Shown piece by piece: positions 2 through 8,289 of a stretch of 8,289 bases of DNA; position 1 is the stretch's first letter, and each line of letters begins with the position of its first letter. A model generated the notes under the pieces. That model made no database searches. It was given only the letters and a program-made list of their open reading frames with translations, and was not told the DNA's origin. The position numbers and the translations under genes are program-made. The stretch lies in the NCBI GenBank assembly GCA_002482405.1, contig DLFX01000199.1, positions 4,425-12,713 on the forward strand. Reading direction: 5' to 3'. The stretch comes from Firmicutes bacterium UBA7709. GTDB lineage: Bacteria; Bacillota_A; Clostridia; Peptostreptococcales; Anaerovoracaceae.

Positions 2-220
2 TTGCCAGCAAGCCGATTACCCATTGATATCAAGGGGCTTACGCCGGAAATGAAAGCAGAGCTTGAATCAAGAATCCTGGAATTTGAAAAGGATTATGAA
101 CCGGCTACGTCCAAAGGCGGTGGGGGATATGTTCCCAAAATCCAAAAAAGGGATTATTTGATCGCAGGTATTGTCAACGGAATAATCGTAATTTACTTCA
201 TAATCGCTATGGCACTGTAG
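2..220 (+). CDS. Small single-pass membrane protein, possibly partial at its 5' end
   Basis: I do not recognise a named family. The visible 72 residues start at a TTG next to the window edge, so the true start may lie upstream and no ribosome site can be judged. Residues 1-33 are charged and look helical (IKGLTPEMKAELESRILEFE). Residues 36-50 are a flexible, glycine-rich and basic linker with GGGG at 39-42. Residues 52-72 form one hydrophobic helix ending at the C terminus, so the protein would be tail-anchored. The stop lies 16 nt before the permease start, and that gap holds the permease ribosome site, so the two are very probably co-transcribed. By analogy with other transporters that have a tiny hydrophobic partner it could be an accessory subunit of the NCS1 permease. 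That role is inference. The alternative is the C-terminal end of a larger protein. Confidence 0.7.
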   Translation: MPASRLPIDIKGLTPEMKAELESRILEFEKDYEPATSKGGGGYVPKIQKRDYLIAGIVNGIIVIYFIIAMAL

Positions 221-236
221 AGGAAGAGGTGAAAAA

Positions 237-1694
237 ATGGCAAGTTCAAACGCCAAGATTCAGAACGAAGTTTATTTCAGTCTTTTGCCCGTTAAAAAAA
301 GGGAGCGCACCTATGGGATGTGGGATCTTATGGCCGTTCAAATCTGTTTCGGCATAGCGGCCTGGTTCTTTTTGACGGGAGCCCAGACGGGCATGCTTTT
401 GCCGGCAAGAGAAGCCATCCCGACGATTTTGTTCGGAAACTGTATTCCTATCTGCCTGATTGCATTCATTGGAATCGCCTCGTCGCGTTACGGGGTAGAA
501 CAGCTGACGGTTTCTTCCGGCATTTTCGGTCAAAAAGGCTCTGTCCTGATGCTCATATTCTATATGGTGGCCTGTTATCCCGCACTGGCTGTCGCAACTC
601 TGATGTTTGGCCAGAGTGCGACGAAGTTTATCAAACAGTTAAACGGGCCGGCAGTTTTAAGCTCTGAAACATCGGGTGTCGTGATTTTAGCCGTGGCGGC
701 TTTAATTATCGGTGTCTATATCGCGTTTCTTGGGCCAAATGCTCTGAGATGGTTTACAAGATTGTCCGCGATTTTTATGATGCTGATCATTGCGGCGCTG
801 ATCGTTTATATCTTCAAATATTATGGAATTTCAAACATATGGAATGCGGAACCCGCGGAGCCCTATGTCTTTGAAGGAAATCCGGAGTTGGGTACGGCAT
901 GGAGCCGGGCGACAGCTTTGGAGGTAAATGTCGGGCTCGGATTGTCCTGGGGGTTCTTCTTCGGACAATGGACCAGGCTTGCCAGAACGGAAGGAAACGG
1001 CTATCACGGCTGCATGTGGGGATGGGGCGTGCTGGCGGCCGTAGCAGGCGTATTTGCCGCCTTTACCGCACTGGCCATCGGCGTTTATGATCCTACCCTC
1101 TGGATCGTTCAGGTGAGCAATGAGGTAGGGAACAACGTGCTTTCCATAATCGGGTTGCTGCTGATGGCAGTGGCAAATGTAACCTCTGTCGCAACGCTTG
1201 TATATCCTGAAGCGATCAGCATCCGGGCCAGGTTTCCCAAGATTGGATGGGTTGCGGCGTTGGCTCTTGGCTCAATCCCGACGCTGTTCCTGCTGTTCCC
1301 GTCGGTTTATTACATGATCAGCAAGGTGTACGCGATCATCGGGCTATTGACCGGCATCTATTCCGCTATCGTCGTTTCGGATTTCCTGTTCATCAGCAAG
1401 GGAAAGTTCAGAATCAGGGAATTCTTCAGCACGAAAAACGGATATCAGTATGCGAATGGCTGGAATCCGGCGGCCCTGATCGCAATTGCGGCAGGATTTA
1501 TTACATACCTCTCCATTCTGAATCCGCTGACATGGACCAGCGCAACGGGGTTGTTCCCTTACATCAGCGCAGGTCTGCCAACGTTTTTTATCACTGCAAT
1601 CGTATACACGGTTCTGATGAAAGCCTGGATTGTCAAAAAGTATAAAATCCCGTTTGTCAACGACATGGAGATCGAAGGGGAGCAGAAGCTCTGA
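237..1694 (+). CDS. NCS1-family permease (cytosine/purine/hydantoin/allantoin transporter type)
   Basis: The 485-residue protein is a polytopic membrane protein with about twelve hydrophobic segments, the usual size and topology for the NCS1 (nucleobase:cation symporter-1, CodB/Mhp1/PucI) family. The N terminus carries the family-like lead-in: a polar stretch, LLPVKKRERTYGMWD at about residues 16-30, then a first helix with aromatic and glycine residues and FLTGAQTG at about 45-52. Known members import cytosine, uracil, hydantoins, allantoin, thiamine precursors or pyridoxine with H+ or Na+. The exact ligand cannot be read here. The ATG at 237 has AGAGGTG at 225-231 just upstream. It follows a small membrane protein by 16 nt and precedes a GRE activase, which suggests it supplies the GRE substrate. 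A less likely alternative is a housekeeping nucleobase transporter that happens to lie beside the GRE genes. Confidence 0.9.
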   Translation: MASSNAKIQNEVYFSLLPVKKRERTYGMWDLMAVQICFGIAAWFFLTGAQTGMLLPAREAIPTILFGNCIPICLIAFIGIASSRYGVEQLTVSSGIFGQKGSVLMLIFYMVACYPALAVATLMFGQSATKFIKQLNGPAVLSSETSGVVILAVAALIIGVYIAFLGPNALRWFTRLSAIFMMLIIAALIVYIFKYYGISNIWNAEPAEPYVFEGNPELGTAWSRATALEVNVGLGLSWGFFFGQWTRLARTEGNGYHGCMWGWGVLAAVAGVFAAFTALAIGVYDPTLWIVQVSNEVGNNVLSIIGLLLMAVANVTSVATLVYPEAISIRARFPKIGWVAALALGSIPTLFLLFPSVYYMISKVYAIIGLLTGIYSAIVVSDFLFISKGKFRIREFFSTKNGYQYANGWNPAALIAIAAGFITYLSILNPLTWTSATGLFPYISAGLPTFFITAIVYTVLMKAWIVKKYKIPFVNDMEIEGEQKL

Positions 1695-1708
1695 GAATAT
1701 AAATCACG

Positions 1709-1741
1709 CTGAGGCCTTAATTGCACATATTAAGGCCTCAG
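1709..1741 (+). terminator. Perfect 13-bp hairpin between permease and activase genes
   Basis: CTGAGGCCTTAAT (1709-1721) pairs perfectly with ATTAAGGCCTCAG (1729-1741) around the 7-nt loop TGCACAT. It lies 14 nt after the permease stop and ends a few bases before the activase ribosome site. Only TTAT follows the stem, not a proper U-run. It may therefore be a partial terminator or attenuator, an mRNA processing or stability stem that sets permease and activase levels apart, or a protein-binding dyad. The pairing is seen directly; the function is inferred. Confidence 0.5.
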
Positions 1742-1764
1742 TTATCCGAAGGGAATAAAAGCGC

Positions 1765-2685
1765 ATGGCGGAAAAGAAAAAGGATGAGTTGACGGGTGTG
1801 ATTTTCGACATCCAAAGGTATTCGCTGCATGACGGCGAAGGGATCAGAACCCTCGTATTTATGAAGGGCTGCCCGCTGAAATGCCTGTGGTGCAGCAATC
1901 CGGAATCACAGGACGTCAGAATTGAAATCGGCTCTGTTTCAAAGGAATGCGTCGGGTGTGGAAAGTGTTTCGAAGTCTGTCCACAGAAAGCGGTCCTGCT
2001 GCCGGATTATTCCATAGACAGGGGCAGGTGCAGCGATTGCATGGAGTGCGCGAAAGTATGCGCGGTGAAATCCAAGAGGATCATAGGGCGCGCCGTTACG
2101 GTTGACCAGCTGCTTGAAACGGTTGAAAAGGACCGCATATTCTTTAAAAATTCCATGGGCGGGGTTACGGTCGGCGGCGGCGAGCCTGCCTTTCAAAGCA
2201 AATTTGTGTCCGCGTTTTTAATAGCCTGCAAAGGGGTCAACCTGAATACCAGCGTTGAAACCTGCGGCTGCGCGCCCTGGGATATCTTCGCCGAAACGGT
2301 TCGATACGCGGATGTGATACACTTTGACGTCAAACATATGGATCCAGACAGGCACTTGGAGCTGACGGGGGCAAGGAATGAGATCATATTGGAAAATCTG
2401 AGAAAAATCAGCGAACTCCAGGAAGTCATCGTTCGAATTCCGGTGATTCCGGGCATGAATGACGACGATGAAAACCTGCGTCACACCATAAGCTTTGCTT
2501 CCGGGCTGAAGAGGGTGAGCCGGATCGAATTGCTGCCATTCCACACCTTGGGATATGGGAAATATGACCTGGTGGGAAAGGAAAACAGCCTGGGGGAAAT
2601 GAAACCCTATACAAAGGAGCAGAAAGCCCAATTGGCTGAACGTGTCGGAAAAATGCCGGCAAATGTTGAAATCAGGCTTATGTAA
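1765..2685 (+). CDS. Glycyl radical enzyme activating enzyme (radical SAM, with two ferredoxin-type 4Fe-4S sites)
   Basis: The 306-residue protein is a GRE activase. It uses S-adenosylmethionine and a 4Fe-4S cluster to abstract hydrogen from the conserved glycine of its partner enzyme, here most likely Gly781 of the GRE downstream. The radical-SAM motif CPLKCLWC places cysteines at 36, 40 and 43 (CX3CX2C). It is preceded by SLHDGEGIRT (20-29), typical of the family, and followed by SNPES. A ferredoxin-like insert gives Cys62-65-68-72 and Cys89-92-95-99, two further 4Fe-4S sites as in the activases of dehydratase- and lyase-type GREs and unlike the short PflA. VGGGEP at 136-141 is the SAM-binding strand motif. 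The ATG at 1765 follows a modest GAAGGG site at 1748-1753. Length and motifs are complete, with no frameshift. It lies 70 nt after the permease and is separated from the GRE by the regulator gene. Confidence 0.96.
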   Translation: MAEKKKDELTGVIFDIQRYSLHDGEGIRTLVFMKGCPLKCLWCSNPESQDVRIEIGSVSKECVGCGKCFEVCPQKAVLLPDYSIDRGRCSDCMECAKVCAVKSKRIIGRAVTVDQLLETVEKDRIFFKNSMGGVTVGGGEPAFQSKFVSAFLIACKGVNLNTSVETCGCAPWDIFAETVRYADVIHFDVKHMDPDRHLELTGARNEIILENLRKISELQEVIVRIPVIPGMNDDDENLRHTISFASGLKRVSRIELLPFHTLGYGKYDLVGKENSLGEMKPYTKEQKAQLAERVGKMPANVEIRLM

Positions 2686-2694
2686 ATATTACAT

Positions 2695-2740
2695 TTGATG
2701 CAATTTGTTCGAAATCATGTATAATATCAGTATATTGATT
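2695..2740 (+). promoter_or_regulatory. Promoter of the luxR-type gene with overlapping imperfect dyad
   Basis: A consensus -10 hexamer TATAAT lies at 2720-2725. The best -35 candidate is TTGATG at 2695-2700, with a 19-bp spacer that is longer than ideal. The -10 sits inside an imperfect inverted repeat: AATCATGTATA (2713-2723) against TATATTGATT (2731-2740), spaced by 7 nt. A protein bound there would cover the -10, so autorepression by the downstream LuxR protein is a reasonable guess. The regulator start lies about 40 nt from the -10, with AGGAGG at 2752-2757. Confidence 0.5.
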
Positions 2741-2765
2741 ATGCGTGAAGCAGGAGGCTGCATGA

Positions 2766-3869
2766 ATGGATAGCAACAGTTTCATCAATCAGGATGAGTT
2801 ATATTACCTAAATCAGATGATTGCCGATTTATATGCAGAGGATAACAAGGAAAACGCTTTCAGAGGTTTTTTGGTGAATCTGAAAAAGCTGGTATTCTTT
2901 GAAAAGGGGGACGTCTACTTCTATCACCTCGGCAAAGAAAACTTCAAATTCAACACGTTTATTCATGTGGACTGGAATGAAAATGATTTAAACAGCTACC
3001 TGTACACATACGGATCCATGGATGACGTTCTGCCCCTGATTGCGACAAAACAGCCCATCATGTTTCGAAGCTCGGATGTATTCATCAAAGCCGAACGCGA
3101 AAAGACGCAATATTACAATGAACTGATCAACACCGCCGGAATGCAGCATTCCATCGAAGGCAACATATACGTGGGGGATGAGGGCTATGTAGGCGGGATT
3201 GGGATCCACCGGTCCGACGCCTATTCCGATTTCGATCAGAAGGAGCTTGAAGTTTTAAGATTTGTCCGGCCGCACCTCGCAAACATCGCCAAAGAATTTT
3301 GCGAAGCCCAGGATGAAAAGAGCGATTACTTCAGCGGGATTCCGCTTTTGAAAAACATACAGGACATTGGAATCTGCATTTTGGACTATGATCTGAACAT
3401 CGTCGAATCGAATTTTGAGCAGAATTCGTTTTTATCGGCACAGAATAAGGAGGAGCTGTTCAAGAGCCTGCTGATACTCTGTGAAAGCCTCAAAGATAAG
3501 CTGATCAGAGGTGAAAACAGCAAAAGCGGTGGGAACGAACGGGTGAAAAGCAAGGTGGGCGTCGGCGAAAATTCCTATTTCGTGGACATCACCTTTTCCG
3601 ACAGCGATAGAAAAGAGGCCGTGAAGTTTGTGGCTGTCATCTATGATTACGGCACGATCATATCGAACATGATGATGGAAATAAACGGCCAATATAATCT
3701 GACATCCCGTGAAAGCGAGATCCTGCAATATGTCATGAATGGTTACAGCAATCAGGAAATATCCCGCATGCTATACATTAGTATACCTACCGTGAAAAAG
3801 CATCTGACGAGTATATATAATAAAATGGGCATCACCGGAAAAAGCCAGATCTTAAATACAATACTGTAG
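2766..3869 (+). CDS. LuxR-type transcriptional regulator with GAF/PAS-like sensor region
   Basis: The 367-residue protein ends in a complete LuxR/FixJ-type helix-turn-helix at 312-367. It begins LTSRESEILQYV, has SNQEIS at 328-333, and its recognition helix lies around TVKKHL (342-347). The first ~180 residues resemble a GAF-like ligand or signal sensor by pattern (alternating strands, YVGGIGIHRSDAYSDFDQKE, then a linker helix). Residues ~190-298 look like a divergent PAS-like unit (IGICILDYDLNIVESN). Both domain calls are from pattern only, since the sequences are divergent. There is no aspartate receiver domain and no signal peptide, so it is a cytoplasmic one-component regulator. The ATG at 2766 is fixed by AGGAGG 8 nt upstream; the ATG at 2762 reaches a stop after three codons. 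It has its own promoter and lies between activase and GRE, so control of the GRE locus is its likely job. Confidence 0.92.
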   Translation: MDSNSFINQDELYYLNQMIADLYAEDNKENAFRGFLVNLKKLVFFEKGDVYFYHLGKENFKFNTFIHVDWNENDLNSYLYTYGSMDDVLPLIATKQPIMFRSSDVFIKAEREKTQYYNELINTAGMQHSIEGNIYVGDEGYVGGIGIHRSDAYSDFDQKELEVLRFVRPHLANIAKEFCEAQDEKSDYFSGIPLLKNIQDIGICILDYDLNIVESNFEQNSFLSAQNKEELFKSLLILCESLKDKLIRGENSKSGGNERVKSKVGVGENSYFVDITFSDSDRKEAVKFVAVIYDYGTIISNMMMEINGQYNLTSRESEILQYVMNGYSNQEISRMLYISIPTVKKHLTSIYNKMGITGKSQILNTIL

Positions 3870-3874
3870 AGATA

Positions 3875-3884
3875 GGTATACCTT
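3875..3884. repeat. 10-bp perfect palindrome AGGTATACCT downstream of luxR
   Basis: AGGTATACCT is self-complementary and lies 5 nt after the regulator stop, about 160 nt upstream of the GRE start. A related half-copy, AGTATACCTA, occurs at 3780-3789 inside the regulator's 3' end. It could be a protein-binding site in the GRE leader. It could also be chance, because short AT-rich palindromes are common. Confidence 0.25.
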
Positions 3885-3894
3885 TGAAGGGGGG

Positions 3895-3917
3895 CCGGCC
3901 ACTCCCGCCGGGGCCGG
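3895..3917 (+). other. GC-rich hairpin between luxR and GRE genes
   Basis: CCGGCC (3895-3900) can pair with GGCCGG (3912-3917) over an 11-nt loop. The stretch from 3889 to 3928 is strikingly G+C-rich against the AT-rich DNA around it. No T-run follows (ATAAAACAAAC comes next), so it is not a standard intrinsic terminator. It may still reduce read-through from luxR into the GRE, or it may be a remnant of an inserted repeat. Confidence 0.35.
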
Positions 3918-3967
3918 AACCGCCGACGGATAAAACAAACTATACTTTCAGTCAATATCTTTTCCCT

Positions 3968-3986
3968 GAAAATCAGAGTACAATAA
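3968..3986 (+). promoter_or_regulatory. Candidate promoter core for the GRE gene
   Basis: TACAAT at 3979-3984 is a good -10 candidate, preceded by GAAAATCA at 3968-3975. The luxR promoter has GAAATCA at 2711-2717 directly before its own TATAAT. At the usual 16-18 bp upstream there is only T-rich sequence without a recognisable -35. A weak -35 fits a promoter that needs an activator, plausibly the adjacent LuxR protein. The transcript would have a leader of roughly 55-60 nt before the GRE start. Confidence 0.35.
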
Positions 3987-4046
3987 TTTAAACTTAATAT
4001 CATTGACAGAGAGCAAGAAATACCTGCTCGGATTGGAGGGTTATAA

Positions 4047-6464
4047 ATGGAGGAGAAACTGTGCTGCGGCGGAGAGATCACACAGGATTCAAAATCGAGA
4101 TATCCGCGTATCAACCATCTGCTGGATCGATTCTTTGATATACGTCCTCAGTTATGCATCGAAAGAGCTGAGATCTACACGAAATCATTTAAAGAAACCG
4201 AGGGAGAACATGAAATAATCCGCCGGGCAAAGGCGTTTAAGAAAACATGCGAGGAGAAGAGCATCGTCATTTACGACGAAGAGCTGATCGTCGGGGGAGC
4301 CGCGACCGTTCCAAGGGCGGCGGTTTTTTGCCCGGAACATTCCGCCAGCTGGCTGAAGGACGAACTGGATGAACTGCCCACGAGAAAACAGGATCCATAC
4401 GATGTCAGCGAGGAGCAGAAGGAAACCCTCAGGGCGGAGATTTTTCCGTACTGGCTGGATAAGGATATCAGCAACCGCTGGCTGCATCAAATCCCGGAGG
4501 AAGTCAGGGAAATCGCGGTAAAGACCGGAATCATCGACATCGAGATCAAAACTCAAAGCGGTCCCGGTGAAATTTCCCCAGGGGTAAAAAAGGTTTTGAC
4601 AAAAGGTTTTAAGGGGATCAAGCAGGACGCGGCAGCGGAGCTTTCAAAGCTGGATCCGGTGGACCCGGAAAGCTATGCCAAAATCAATTTCTATAAAGCG
4701 GTGATCCTCTGTATGGACGGAATCATGGCTCTGGCGGGAAGGTATTCCGCCCTGGCCAAAGAGATGGCGGCGATGGAGGAAAACGCCCAGAGAAAAGACG
4801 AGCTGACGACGATATCGGAAAACCTGAGCTGGGCGCCGGCCAATCCCGCGAGAAATTTCTGGGAAGCGCTGCAGGCGATGTATATTCTTCAAATAGGCTG
4901 TTATCTTGAGGCAAACGGCCCTTCCTATTCTCCCGGCAGGGTGGATCAGCTGTTTTTCCCCTATTACCGCAAGGACGTTCAGGACGGCCGGTTGACCGAG
5001 GATCAGGCGCTGGAGCTGATAGAGTGCCTCTACCTGAAATTTGCGGAAAACACGTGGTTCCTGAGCACGAACGCATCGATGTATTTCGCCGGATATCAGC
5101 CTTATGAAAACGTCTGCGTCGGCGGGGTGACCAGAGACGGAAAGGATGCGACAAATGAATTGTCCTATCTGTTCCTGACTGCAAAGATGGAGGTAAGGCT
5201 TCACGCTCCCTCTCTGTCCGTAAGGGTGCACAATCAGTCTCCCGAAAGGTTTTTGTCCGCGGTGGCCGAACTCGCCCAGGTCGGCACAGGTTTTCCCGCG
5301 CTCCACAACGACGAGGTCACGATCAAAATGATGCTGATCAACGGTGCGAGCATTGAAGACGCGAGGGATTATTGCCTTGTGGGATGCGTCGAACCCTATA
5401 TTCCGGGCAAAATGTCGAAATGGACCGACGGCGGCCACTACAATTACGGATCTGCGGTTGAAATGGTGCTGACAAACGGACACAGCATCATGAATGGCAA
5501 TAGGCTGCTGGGAGTTCAGGCCGGAGATCCCTCCGAGATGGATTTTAACGAATTCAAGGAGGCGGTGAAGAAGCAGCTGGCGTTCTTTATCAAGAATATC
5601 GCAACGGCGTGCCATATCTGCGAAGGTTTGCACGAGCAGTTCACCCAGTATCCCTTTATGTCGGCTACCATTGACGGCTGCATTGAAAGCGGCAGGGATA
5701 TCACTTCAGGAGGAGCCGAATTGACGATAGGGCCGGCGTTTATCGGCACCGGCATCGCCGACCTGGCAAACTCCCTGTCGGTCATCAAGGAATTTGTATA
5801 CGATAAGAAAGCGATCAAGATGGAAGAGCTGGTTGAAGCCATCCGCAACAACTTCAGCGGATTTGAAAATATGAAGTCCATGATCGAATCCAACGGAAGG
5901 TTCTACGGCAACGACGATGACTTTGTGGACGACTTTGTAAGAGAGATGACGGATTACGCATACCGGCAGATCATTCAATACAAATCGTTCAGAGGGCCGA
6001 ACTATATCTCCGGATTGTATCCTGTGGCCTCCCACGTTCCGCACGGACTGGTGGTTTCCGCGCTGCCCTATGGCCGGCTGGAGGGAACGCCTCTCGCCGA
6101 CGGATGCTCGCCGAAGAGCGGCACAGATGTCAACGGACCCACTGCGGTGCTTAAATCCGTATCGAAGATCAATCACGAATCCCACGTCGCGGGAACGCTT
6201 TTGAATGTGAGATTGGACCCCGTCACGTCCAAGGGAAGCGAAGGAAACGCGAGGATCGTGTCCCTGATCAAATCCTTTATCGATTTGGATATCTACCATA
6301 TTCAATTCAATATTATTTCAAGCGACACCCTCAAGAGGGCGCAAAAAAATCCGAAGCAGTATAAATCATTAATCGTTCGCGTTGCGGGCTACAGCGCGTT
6401 CTTTGTAGAGCTGTGCGAAGAGATGCAGAATGATATCATCCAGAGAACGGTTCATACCGCATAG
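4047..6464 (+). CDS. Glycyl radical enzyme, dehydratase/lyase-type (GCVEP class), substrate unknown
   Basis: The 805-residue protein has the full GRE layout: a pyruvate-formate-lyase-like barrel and a C-terminal glycyl-radical domain. The radical loop RVAGYSAFF sits at 778-786, with Gly781 the radical site. The catalytic thiyl cysteine is Cys447 in GCVEP (446-450), and Glu449 is the acid/base position seen in eliminating and decarboxylating GREs. Other family blocks are VGG at 358-360, HNDEV at 420-424, DGCSP at 685-689 and NGPTA at 696-700. Length and GCVEP exclude pyruvate formate-lyase and class III ribonucleotide reductase. Residues after GCVEP (YIPGKMSKWTDGGHYNYG) and NGPSYSPGRVDQ at 290-301 do not let me assign it to the choline, glycerol, propanediol, hydroxyproline, isethionate or arylacetate enzymes. 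There is no N-terminal microcompartment-type extension, so it is probably cytosolic. The ATG at 4047 has GGAGGG 6 nt upstream. Confidence 0.96.
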   Translation: MEEKLCCGGEITQDSKSRYPRINHLLDRFFDIRPQLCIERAEIYTKSFKETEGEHEIIRRAKAFKKTCEEKSIVIYDEELIVGGAATVPRAAVFCPEHSASWLKDELDELPTRKQDPYDVSEEQKETLRAEIFPYWLDKDISNRWLHQIPEEVREIAVKTGIIDIEIKTQSGPGEISPGVKKVLTKGFKGIKQDAAAELSKLDPVDPESYAKINFYKAVILCMDGIMALAGRYSALAKEMAAMEENAQRKDELTTISENLSWAPANPARNFWEALQAMYILQIGCYLEANGPSYSPGRVDQLFFPYYRKDVQDGRLTEDQALELIECLYLKFAENTWFLSTNASMYFAGYQPYENVCVGGVTRDGKDATNELSYLFLTAKMEVRLHAPSLSVRVHNQSPERFLSAVAELAQVGTGFPALHNDEVTIKMMLINGASIEDARDYCLVGCVEPYIPGKMSKWTDGGHYNYGSAVEMVLTNGHSIMNGNRLLGVQAGDPSEMDFNEFKEAVKKQLAFFIKNIATACHICEGLHEQFTQYPFMSATIDGCIESGRDITSGGAELTIGPAFIGTGIADLANSLSVIKEFVYDKKAIKMEELVEAIRNNFSGFENMKSMIESNGRFYGNDDDFVDDFVREMTDYAYRQIIQYKSFRGPNYISGLYPVASHVPHGLVVSALPYGRLEGTPLADGCSPKSGTDVNGPTAVLKSVSKINHESHVAGTLLNVRLDPVTSKGSEGNARIVSLIKSFIDLDIYHIQFNIISSDTLKRAQKNPKQYKSLIVRVAGYSAFFVELCEEMQNDIIQRTVHTA

Positions 6465-7444: not shown

Positions 7445-8289
7445 TTATTTAACGTCGTCCTTGGTGATTACGCTTACTCCGGTATCCACATTCTTATTTT
7501 CGATCGCTTCGCCTTTCAGGAGCTTGATGGCGGCTTCCATTCCGTCTTTACCCATCACGTCGGGGTTCTGAGCCATGGTGCAGAGGAGTGCGCCGTCGGA
7601 GATCAGGCCGAGGATCGTGTCGGATTTGTCGAAGCCGACGCCTACCACTGGTTTTTCGGAGGCCTTGATGGCGTTGCCGACTCCTACGGTGCCGCCTTCA
7701 TTCGTGCCGAAGATGCCGACACAGCCCTGTGAAATAAAGTTAGCGGCGGCATCCTGGGATTTGGCGGCGTCACCTTCACAGAACTGGGTTGTGAGAATGT
7801 TGAAGCCGGAGCCCTCAAAGGCCGCGCGGAATCCCTCTTCCCGCAGCACGCAGGAGGTGGTGTCCGGTTTCACGTTGATGATGCCGATATCGCCGCCCGT
7901 GACGCCCTGAGTCTTGAGTTCCGCCAGCATCTGCTCGCCGGCGGTGGTTCCGGCCGCTTTGTTATCGGTTGCGAAAGTGGCTTCGCCGGGGAAGTTCGCG
8001 GGAGAGTCAACGTATACGATCTTCACTCCCTTTGAGGCCGCTTCTTCCAAAGCGGAAGAGATGGCGTCGGGACCGTTGGCCGCCAGCAGGATCACCTTTG
8101 CTCCGTCGGATACCGCGTTGTTTACCTTGTCGATCTGCTGGGCGTCATCCTTTTTGTCCGGAGCGCTCCACTTGTAATCTACGTAGTCGCTGTTGGCCGC
8201 GGCCACTTCCTGGGCGCCCTTGTTCACGTTCTGCCAGTGCTGATCCATCTGGTCCATTGTGATCAGGTAGACCTTTGCTTTTTCCGTTG
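7445..8289 (-). CDS. Sugar ABC transporter substrate-binding protein (RbsB-like), 5' end missing
   Basis: About 280 residues of a type-I periplasmic binding protein are visible. The reading frame stays open to the window edge, adding KVYLITMDQ before the first in-window ATG at 8257. That segment is the first core beta strand of the fold, so 8257 is an internal Met and the start, with its export signal, lies outside. Family blocks occur in order: VDSPA and ATDNKAAGTTAGEQ mid-way, then GTNEGGTVGVGNAIK, VGVGFDKSD at the second-lobe strand, and AQNPDVMGKDGMEAAIKLLKGE near the end. These match the ribose/galactose/xylose-type (Peripla_BP_4) group. The product would be an exported, probably lipid-anchored protein delivering a sugar or related ligand to an ABC importer. 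The ligand is not determined. The permease and ATPase genes are not in the window. It is followed by two hairpins, so it is probably the last gene of its transcript or a single-gene unit. Confidence 0.93.
   Translation of the reverse strand, partial: TEKAKVYLITMDQMDQHWQNVNKGAQEVAAANSDYVDYKWSAPDKKDDAQQIDKVNNAVSDGAKVILLAANGPDAISSALEEAASKGVKIVYVDSPANFPGEATFATDNKAAGTTAGEQMLAELKTQGVTGGDIGIINVKPDTTSCVLREEGFRAAFEGSGFNILTTQFCEGDAAKSQDAAANFISQGCVGIFGTNEGGTVGVGNAIKASEKPVVGVGFDKSDTILGLISDGALLCTMAQNPDVMGKDGMEAAIKLLKGEAIENKNVDTGVSVITKDDVK

Follow-up and report, generated by a model that had tools for sequence, protein, structure and literature searches.

The window analysed here is a stretch of 8,289 nucleotides from Firmicutes bacterium UBA7709 (Anaerovoracaceae; contig DLFX01000199.1, positions 4,425 to 12,713), which carries a compact run of genes around a glycyl radical enzyme (GRE). 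An open reading frame (ORF) list and scans against Pfam and NCBIfam place five genes on the + strand in the order, 5' to 3', small membrane protein, NCS1-type permease, radical S-adenosylmethionine (SAM) activase, LuxR regulator and GRE. An earlier, sequence-only reading of the window had proposed this order, and we confirm it for all five ORFs in position and strand, with family membership supported by Pfam scores. The window holds the following features.

2..220, + strand: small protein with one hydrophobic stretch; ORF with no Pfam or NCBIfam match, 5' end cut at the window edge
237..1694, + strand: divergent NCS1-family permease, 485 amino acids; PF02133 (Transp_cyt_pur) 60.4 bits, cut-off 23.5
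1709..1741, no strand: 13-bp inverted repeat between the permease and activase genes; repeat search
1765..2685, + strand: GRE-activating radical SAM enzyme with a ferredoxin-type stretch; Radical_SAM 70.5 bits
2766..3869, + strand: LuxR-type regulator; GerE 59 bits, N-terminal part without a Pfam family match
3874..3883, no strand: palindrome AGGTATACCT, a candidate operator directly after the luxR stop; pattern count
4047..6464, + strand: glycyl radical enzyme, 805 amino acids, CXE eliminase type; PFL-like 683.9 and Gly_radical 105.1 bits
6495..7226, - strand: TMEM164-like membrane protein; TIGR02206
7319..7357: 18-pair hairpin with a terminator-like score, between the TMEM164-like and binding-protein genes
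7445..8287, - strand: Peripla_BP_4 protein, cut by the window end; library scan

The usual companion enzymes of such GREs had been described as absent, and none lies inside the gene run. The seven window proteins scanned (Pfam/NCBIfam) include no shell protein, dehydrogenase or other catabolic enzyme, and inside the window no catabolic enzyme follows 3' of the GRE, where the next genes run on the - strand. The window also contains no tRNA and no RNA family at gathering score. The activase translation carries CxxxCxxC and scores 334.1 bits against TIGR02494 (cut-off 174.35), staying under the NCBIfam equivalog cut-offs. For the 13-bp inverted repeat upstream of it, the role of terminator, attenuator or something else is conceivable.

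The window GRE is of the eliminase type and matches no characterised function model. It has the PFL-like and Gly_radical domains, the RVAGY glycine, the catalytic cysteine and a nearby activase gene that define the superfamily, together with the CXE motif of eliminases (C447-V448-E449, with C and E in 21/21 rows of the clade described below) and the radical glycine G781. Its scores lie under every NCBIfam function-level (equivalog) cut-off scanned: 738.2 bits against CutC (cut-off 1050), 612 against HypD, the trans-4-hydroxyproline dehydratase (1100), 694.6 and 588.1 against the sulfopropanediol dehydratase models (1000 and 1000), 431.8 and 375.9 against the indoleacetate and hydroxyphenylacetate decarboxylases (1100 and 1150), and 126.5 against pyruvate formate-lyase (994.2). 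Among solved chains, the top single-domain scores are 645 bits for 8id1, 639 for CutC 5fay, 613 for 8iof and 588 for glycerol dehydratase. Their structure titles name 8id1 and 8iof as N-methyl-cis-4-hydroxyproline dehydratases and CutC as choline trimethylamine-lyase. The NCBIfam matches include no curated model of the N-methyl-hydroxyproline dehydratases. Fold comparison places CutC, propanediol dehydratase, glycerol dehydratase and HypD closest; isethionate sulfite-lyase (IslA) matches in sequence (524.7 bits) and in fold too.

The GRE falls in a clade of its own. In a maximum-likelihood tree of 38 rows (four reference enzymes and 34 relatives picked by hand; 8iof is not in the alignment), it groups within a 21-row clade, support 98/98, that includes none of the four references, and 8id1 forms a long branch that joins the tree at a poorly supported node (83/76). 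The clade is marked by the signature I167 K168 E175 P292 D461 H464, which persists to about 48% identity, the remotest members being 48-49% identical to the window GRE. Kept in 21/21 rows are K168, E175, P292, Y346, F347, E449, W459, H464, Y465 and N466; D461 is kept in 20/21, and I167 and H386 in 19/21. Outside the clade, H464 occurs in 1/17 rows (P0119) and P292 likewise in 1/17.

The active-site residue set is a mixture absent from all four references. Y208, D216 and Y506 are residues of the choline site of CutC, and H164, H281, S282 and D447 form the corresponding set of glycerol dehydratase. CutC C489/E491/T502/S503/Y506/D216/Y208/F389/F395 align with window C447/E449/T460/D461/H464/E175/I167/F347/Y353, and glycerol dehydratase H164/H281/S282/Y339/D447 with window E175/P292/S293/Y353/D461. 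The Phe333/Phe389 pairing printed in PMC7077986 agrees with this map. At the CutC D216 column, an acid is present in 21/21 clade rows (E175 in the window GRE), D in CutC and E in 8id1; glycerol dehydratase and HplG have H.

Each of the nearest characterised enzymes differs from the window GRE. We rejected CutC, a choline C-N lyase, on its cut-off, on the tree, which places it in a separate clade, and on residues, since its Y208, D216 and Y506 columns hold I167, E175 and H464; the window also has no microcompartment gene. Anaerovorax odorimutans, which carries a close relative of the window locus, also encodes a GRE 83% identical to CutC 5fay (L007), which makes it probable that a different enzyme handles choline in that organism. 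The N-methyl-cis-4-hydroxy-L-proline dehydratase 8id1 resembles the window GRE in its top score, its 40% identity and its Glu at the D216 column, but has a long separate branch and other residues at the P292, F347, D461 and H464 columns. The D-proline enzyme, 8iof, was compared by score (613 bits). Glycerol dehydratase 1r8w shares the CXE motif and has equivalents of D461, S293 and Y353 (Y in 9/21 clade rows), whereas its H164 and H281 are replaced, which leaves 2/4 of the H164/H281/S282/D447 set, and it lies in a separate clade. An AlphaFold model of the GRE from 21 sequences has a clear overall fold (mean predicted local distance difference test score, pLDDT, 77.4; predicted template modelling score 0.83).

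The GRE clade is found in Anaerovorax relatives and in Desulfobacterota metagenome-assembled genomes. Our GRE search scored 7996 candidates, of which 2446 matched at E <=0.001, and the best 120 of these 2446 reach down to 51% identity. Within genome samples drawn from larger groups, GRE matches at E <=1e-200 occur in 7/296 genomes of the A. odorimutans family; of these, identity and the tree place A. odorimutans (G003), G062 and G013 in this clade. At E <=1e-240, there is 1/391 in the A. odorimutans class (G003 itself) and 3/389 in the order of the Desulfobacterales genome G002 (G001, G002 and G1014). In viral contigs, three stretches fit a pattern of the GRE query and none is a relative.

The link between permease and GRE recurs in part of the clade. 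We read seven clade loci: the window, G003, G062, G013, G001, G002 and G1014. A. odorimutans (L003) has the window's order, small protein-NCS1-activase-LuxR-GRE, with 76% (GRE) and 68% (NCS1) identity; G062 (L022), of the same genus, has the variant small protein-NCS1-LuxR-GRE-activase, with 56% (GRE) and 63% (NCS1). G013 has a LuxR relative, GRE and activase, and G001, G002 and G1014 have GRE and activase. NCS1 therefore adjoins the GRE in 3/7 loci, two of the three from one genus. By a proxy that takes one contig per cluster, 10/97 listed NCS1 clusters share the exact longest-contig size with one of the best 120 of 2446 GREs, against 0.275 expected from local density. The sequence-only reading had called for a count of how often the NCS1-activase-LuxR-GRE order recurs and would have been undermined by relatives without an adjacent permease or by a GRE cluster of known function. 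The link does recur without being universal, since four of the seven loci have no NCS1 beside the GRE (one of them, G001, on a contig of only 7.4 kb), and the 21-row GRE clade holds none of the four reference enzymes.

Permease relatives have a patchy distribution. G013 has none anywhere in its genome at E <=1e-30; at that threshold relatives occur in 15/296 family genomes, only G003 and G062 exceeding 30% identity, and at E <=1e-60 only G998 has one among the 389 genomes of G002's order. An Ihubacter NCS1 (P0129, 67%) has no shared-contig match to the listed GREs, so NCS1 may also exist without an accompanying GRE. In G002, the genes immediately before the GRE encode an ATP-binding cassette (ABC) transporter of the urea/branched-chain type, and another operon of this kind comes after it. 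In G1014, a urea/branched-chain-type binding protein lies about 7 kb off, and flavin adenine dinucleotide (FAD) oxidoreductase and electron transfer flavoprotein genes lie downstream of the GRE-activase pair.

The permease is an NCS1 protein outside the characterised nucleobase clusters. It scores 65.6 bits against the NCS1 subfamily TIGR00800 (cut-off 353.1) and reaches the hydantoin permease Mhp1 at E 0.0064 by single sequence; a 36-row permease profile finds Mhp1 at 1.4e-25 and the cytosine permease 7qoa at 1.8e-8. Mhp1 is thus of the same family by profile, but its four hydantoin contacts W117, Q121, W220 and N318 are replaced by A116, A120, N231 and L321 (mapped by hand on the profile alignment). 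MetT, also an NCS1 protein, carries metformin according to the knockout and labelled-uptake results in PMC13390362, where residual activity is 2.2% for W43A, 9.0% for W117A and 11.2% for W231A. We placed these MetT columns using the Pseudomonas KHPS1 permease, 26% identical to the window permease, as a stand-in for the MetT sequence. With this numbering, the W43 column is W in 34/36 NCS1 rows (exceptions Bacillus badius and P0217) and the W231 column in 36/36; the window permease, like MetT, has both (W43 and W238). The W117 column is W in 16/36 rows and Ala in the window permease and five GRE-tied clusters (P0122, P0127, P0130, P0132 and P0141), six further GRE-tied clusters lying outside the 36-row alignment. 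Such a pattern would suit a cation carrier whose pocket has been remodelled, but the amine-linked permeases share only 25-33% identity with the window permease. The earlier inference from NCS1 membership to nucleobases, hydantoins, allantoin or other N-heterocycles is therefore not well supported: the TIGR00800 score is low, the Mhp1 contacts are gone, distant relatives adjoin amine and guanidine genes, and MetT is a published metformin carrier.

Distant permease relatives are found beside genes of amine metabolism. The B. badius NCS1 (33%) has an HODM-type haem N-demethylase (PF11927), a glutamyl-tRNA reductase, a DmmA-like reductase (34.1 bits, cut-off 33) and an aldehyde dehydrogenase as neighbours. 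Three further NCS1 genes (25-26%) adjoin speB and an aldehyde dehydrogenase (Thioclava), speB 2.6 kb upstream with betA next (Gemmobacter), or agmatinase-family and HypA/HypB genes (Pseudomonas KHPS1). The KHPS1 set resembles the set that PMC9800807 gives as common to the metformin degraders compared there. In G998 (NCS1 49%), an aldehyde dehydrogenase lies downstream; it is split into two overlapping ORFs by an apparent frameshift (L060 11905-13349). A. odorimutans carries a second NCS1 (L062 9301-17765, 27%) with a small ORF, and carbamoyltransferase and PAD_porph genes 4-5 kb off; PAD_porph is the agmatine-deiminase family. By eye, carbamate-kinase-like, C-N-hydrolase-like and alcohol-dehydrogenase-like genes lie in the same region, 4-7 kb from this second NCS1.

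The small membrane protein is a putative partner of the permease. Homologues lie directly 5' of NCS1 in A. odorimutans (61%), G062 and G998 (41%). Small ORFs also precede NCS1 in G297, the G003 and G062 paralogues, G215, G275, B. badius, Thioclava and Gemmobacter; apart from G275, which lies outside the alignment, these eight distant ORFs align poorly, and their likeness is one hydrophobic stretch seen by eye, so common descent may not hold for all of them. No small ORF was recognised beside the KHPS1 NCS1 gene, a further difference from the window permease along with the W117-column Ala. In the window, the frame continues after a G at base 1 as LPASRLPIDI, where G062 has MLPIEKLPIDI, so the ATG of the small protein probably lies just outside the window.

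The regulator gene has relatives beside the GRE in L003 (51%), G062 (48%) and, weakly, G013 (31%). The pattern AGGTATAC has three matches over both strands of the window, all within 3781-3883, where 0.03 are expected; the palindrome AGGTATACCT is counted twice, and the third match is 3781-3788. In L003 and G062 (L022), GTATAC-N(3-5)-AGTAT stands directly after the luxR stop, once per locus (22 kb of L003, 0.02 expected; 19 kb of G062, 0.01 expected). These chance figures are optimistic, because the patterns were picked after viewing the sequences. The AGGTATACCT site is a candidate LuxR operator.

The best reading of these data is an uncharacterised clade of GRE eliminases with a regulator and, in part of the clade, a dedicated NCS1-type importer. 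As for its function, we tentatively favour a module under LuxR control that takes up a small hydroxylated amine, probably a cation, and splits it by radical elimination. The amine would be imported by the permease with its small partner protein. The activase would generate the radical on G781. C447 would abstract a hydrogen atom next to the hydroxyl group, whose proton would go to E449, the glutamate of the CXE motif. Elimination at the adjacent C-N (or C-O) bond would release an aldehyde, accompanied by an amine if the bond is C-N, and enzymes encoded elsewhere would handle the products. An amine substrate is suggested because the top-scoring solved GREs (8id1, 8iof and CutC) act on N-methylated amines, because permease relatives adjoin N-demethylase, agmatinase-type and metformin genes and MetT carries metformin, and because the CutC D216 column carries an acid throughout the clade. 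E175, D461 and H464 may hold the protonated nitrogen. C-N cleavage appears more likely than C-O cleavage, and the GRE may be a C-N lyase acting on a protonated amino alcohol. A more specific version seems rather unlikely. In it, the locus would serve the anaerobic use of a protonated amino alcohol that is not quaternary, for example an N-methylated ethanolamine, and the GRE, as a C-N lyase, would do without B12 the work of the B12-dependent ethanolamine ammonia-lyase. The substrate would enter through a two-component NCS1 importer of organic cations, the specificity of which would have shifted when the W117-column Trp was lost. Of the overall inference in the sequence-only reading, the uncharacterised GRE, the recurrent permease link and the lack of companion enzymes in the run stand; a nucleobase, hydantoin or allantoin substrate is not well supported.

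Several observations weigh against a hydroxylated amine. D461 occupies the glycerol dehydratase D447 column, leaving room for C-O cleavage. Glu at the E175 column also occurs in 10/17 rows outside the clade, including L009 (an HplG relative), so an acid there is not by itself diagnostic of amine enzymes. The amine-linked permeases are only 25-33% identical to the window permease, which has A at the W117 column; the one with the best amine neighbours, from B. badius, carries I and Y in the W43 and W117 columns, respectively. Most of the clade loci read have no NCS1 beside the GRE. In the AlphaFold model, 452-460, 682-708 and 766-805 lie below 50 pLDDT, and the active-site loops are of low confidence. 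The same tally includes hydrolase genes, which sustain an unlikely alternative: the substrate would be an N-heterocycle or amide (hydantoin, lactam or ureide) taken up by NCS1, a family in which carriers of hydantoins and nucleobases are known. The GRE would then cleave it, and hydrolases would be encoded elsewhere. In G002 (L029), hydantoinase A/B, C-N hydrolase and amidohydrolase genes lie one operon from the GRE, the best named models for the hydantoinase pair being caprolactamase subunits, below cut-off. An amidohydrolase gene is divergent beside NCS1 in A. odorimutans, and its relatives lie <= about 1.5 kb from distant NCS1 genes at four loci. Against this, a regulator-like gene on the other strand separates the G002 hydrolase operon from the GRE (by eye), and known GRE eliminases act at a carbon that bears a hydroxyl or amine and adjoins the leaving group. 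The replaced Mhp1 contacts weaken a hydantoin substrate argued from the NCS1 name alone; we keep it within this alternative given the nearby hydrolases.

A distinctly unlikely alternative is HypD-like dehydration of a cyclic hydroxylated amine to an imine or enamine, as in the N-methyl-hydroxyproline dehydratases. The top solved match of 8id1 favours it, as does a related GRE group in G275 (43-44%) with diaminopentanoate-dehydrogenase-like genes (122.8 bits, cut-off 400), but such a gene is absent from the window and from the G003 and G062 runs, the HypD cut-off is missed and 8id1 differs at the P292, F347, D461 and H464 columns. We consider it improbable that the GRE is a diol dehydratase (C-O cleavage) paired with an atypical transporter: D461, S293 and Y353 match glycerol dehydratase residues, but the glycerol dehydratase histidines are lost to E175 and P292 and the clade is separate. 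Very improbably, the permease and GRE are mere neighbours with no common substrate, as the four loci without NCS1 and the ABC transporter and binding-protein genes of G002 and G1014 could suggest, for the two are joined in three loci, share ten contigs, far above expectation, and show mixed conservation (the permease exceeding the GRE in G062 and falling below it in G003).

GREs produce medically relevant metabolites such as trimethylamine, and some GRE groups lack a known substrate. Here, in a few bacterial lineages, a compact gene set surrounds an uncharacterised radical enzyme with a dedicated activase, a regulator and an importer of an unusual kind. The fixed active-site signature and, in part of the clade, a dedicated permease make the clade's substrate directly testable. 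If the reading is true, the permease would extend an emerging picture of the NCS1 family, some of whose members transport organic cations and may do so together with a small partner. Among the papers listed by a literature search, read as titles and abstract starts and with subscription papers mostly out of reach, none links a GRE to an NCS1 permease; PMC5874438 mentions 'glycyl radical' and 'cytosine permease' separately, in Clostridioides difficile.

Other GRE loci show further arrangements. In G275 (L025 2288-14523), a row of four GRE genes (39-43% to the window's) is interspersed with a single activase gene and a diaminopentanoate-dehydrogenase-like gene. In G013 (L023 11647-20000, L024), a LuxR relative lies between two GREs that differ from each other (54% and 43%) and point in opposite directions. 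At the start of L001 stands a truncated ORF with weak similarity to aldehyde ferredoxin oxidoreductase (76 bits, cut-off 868).

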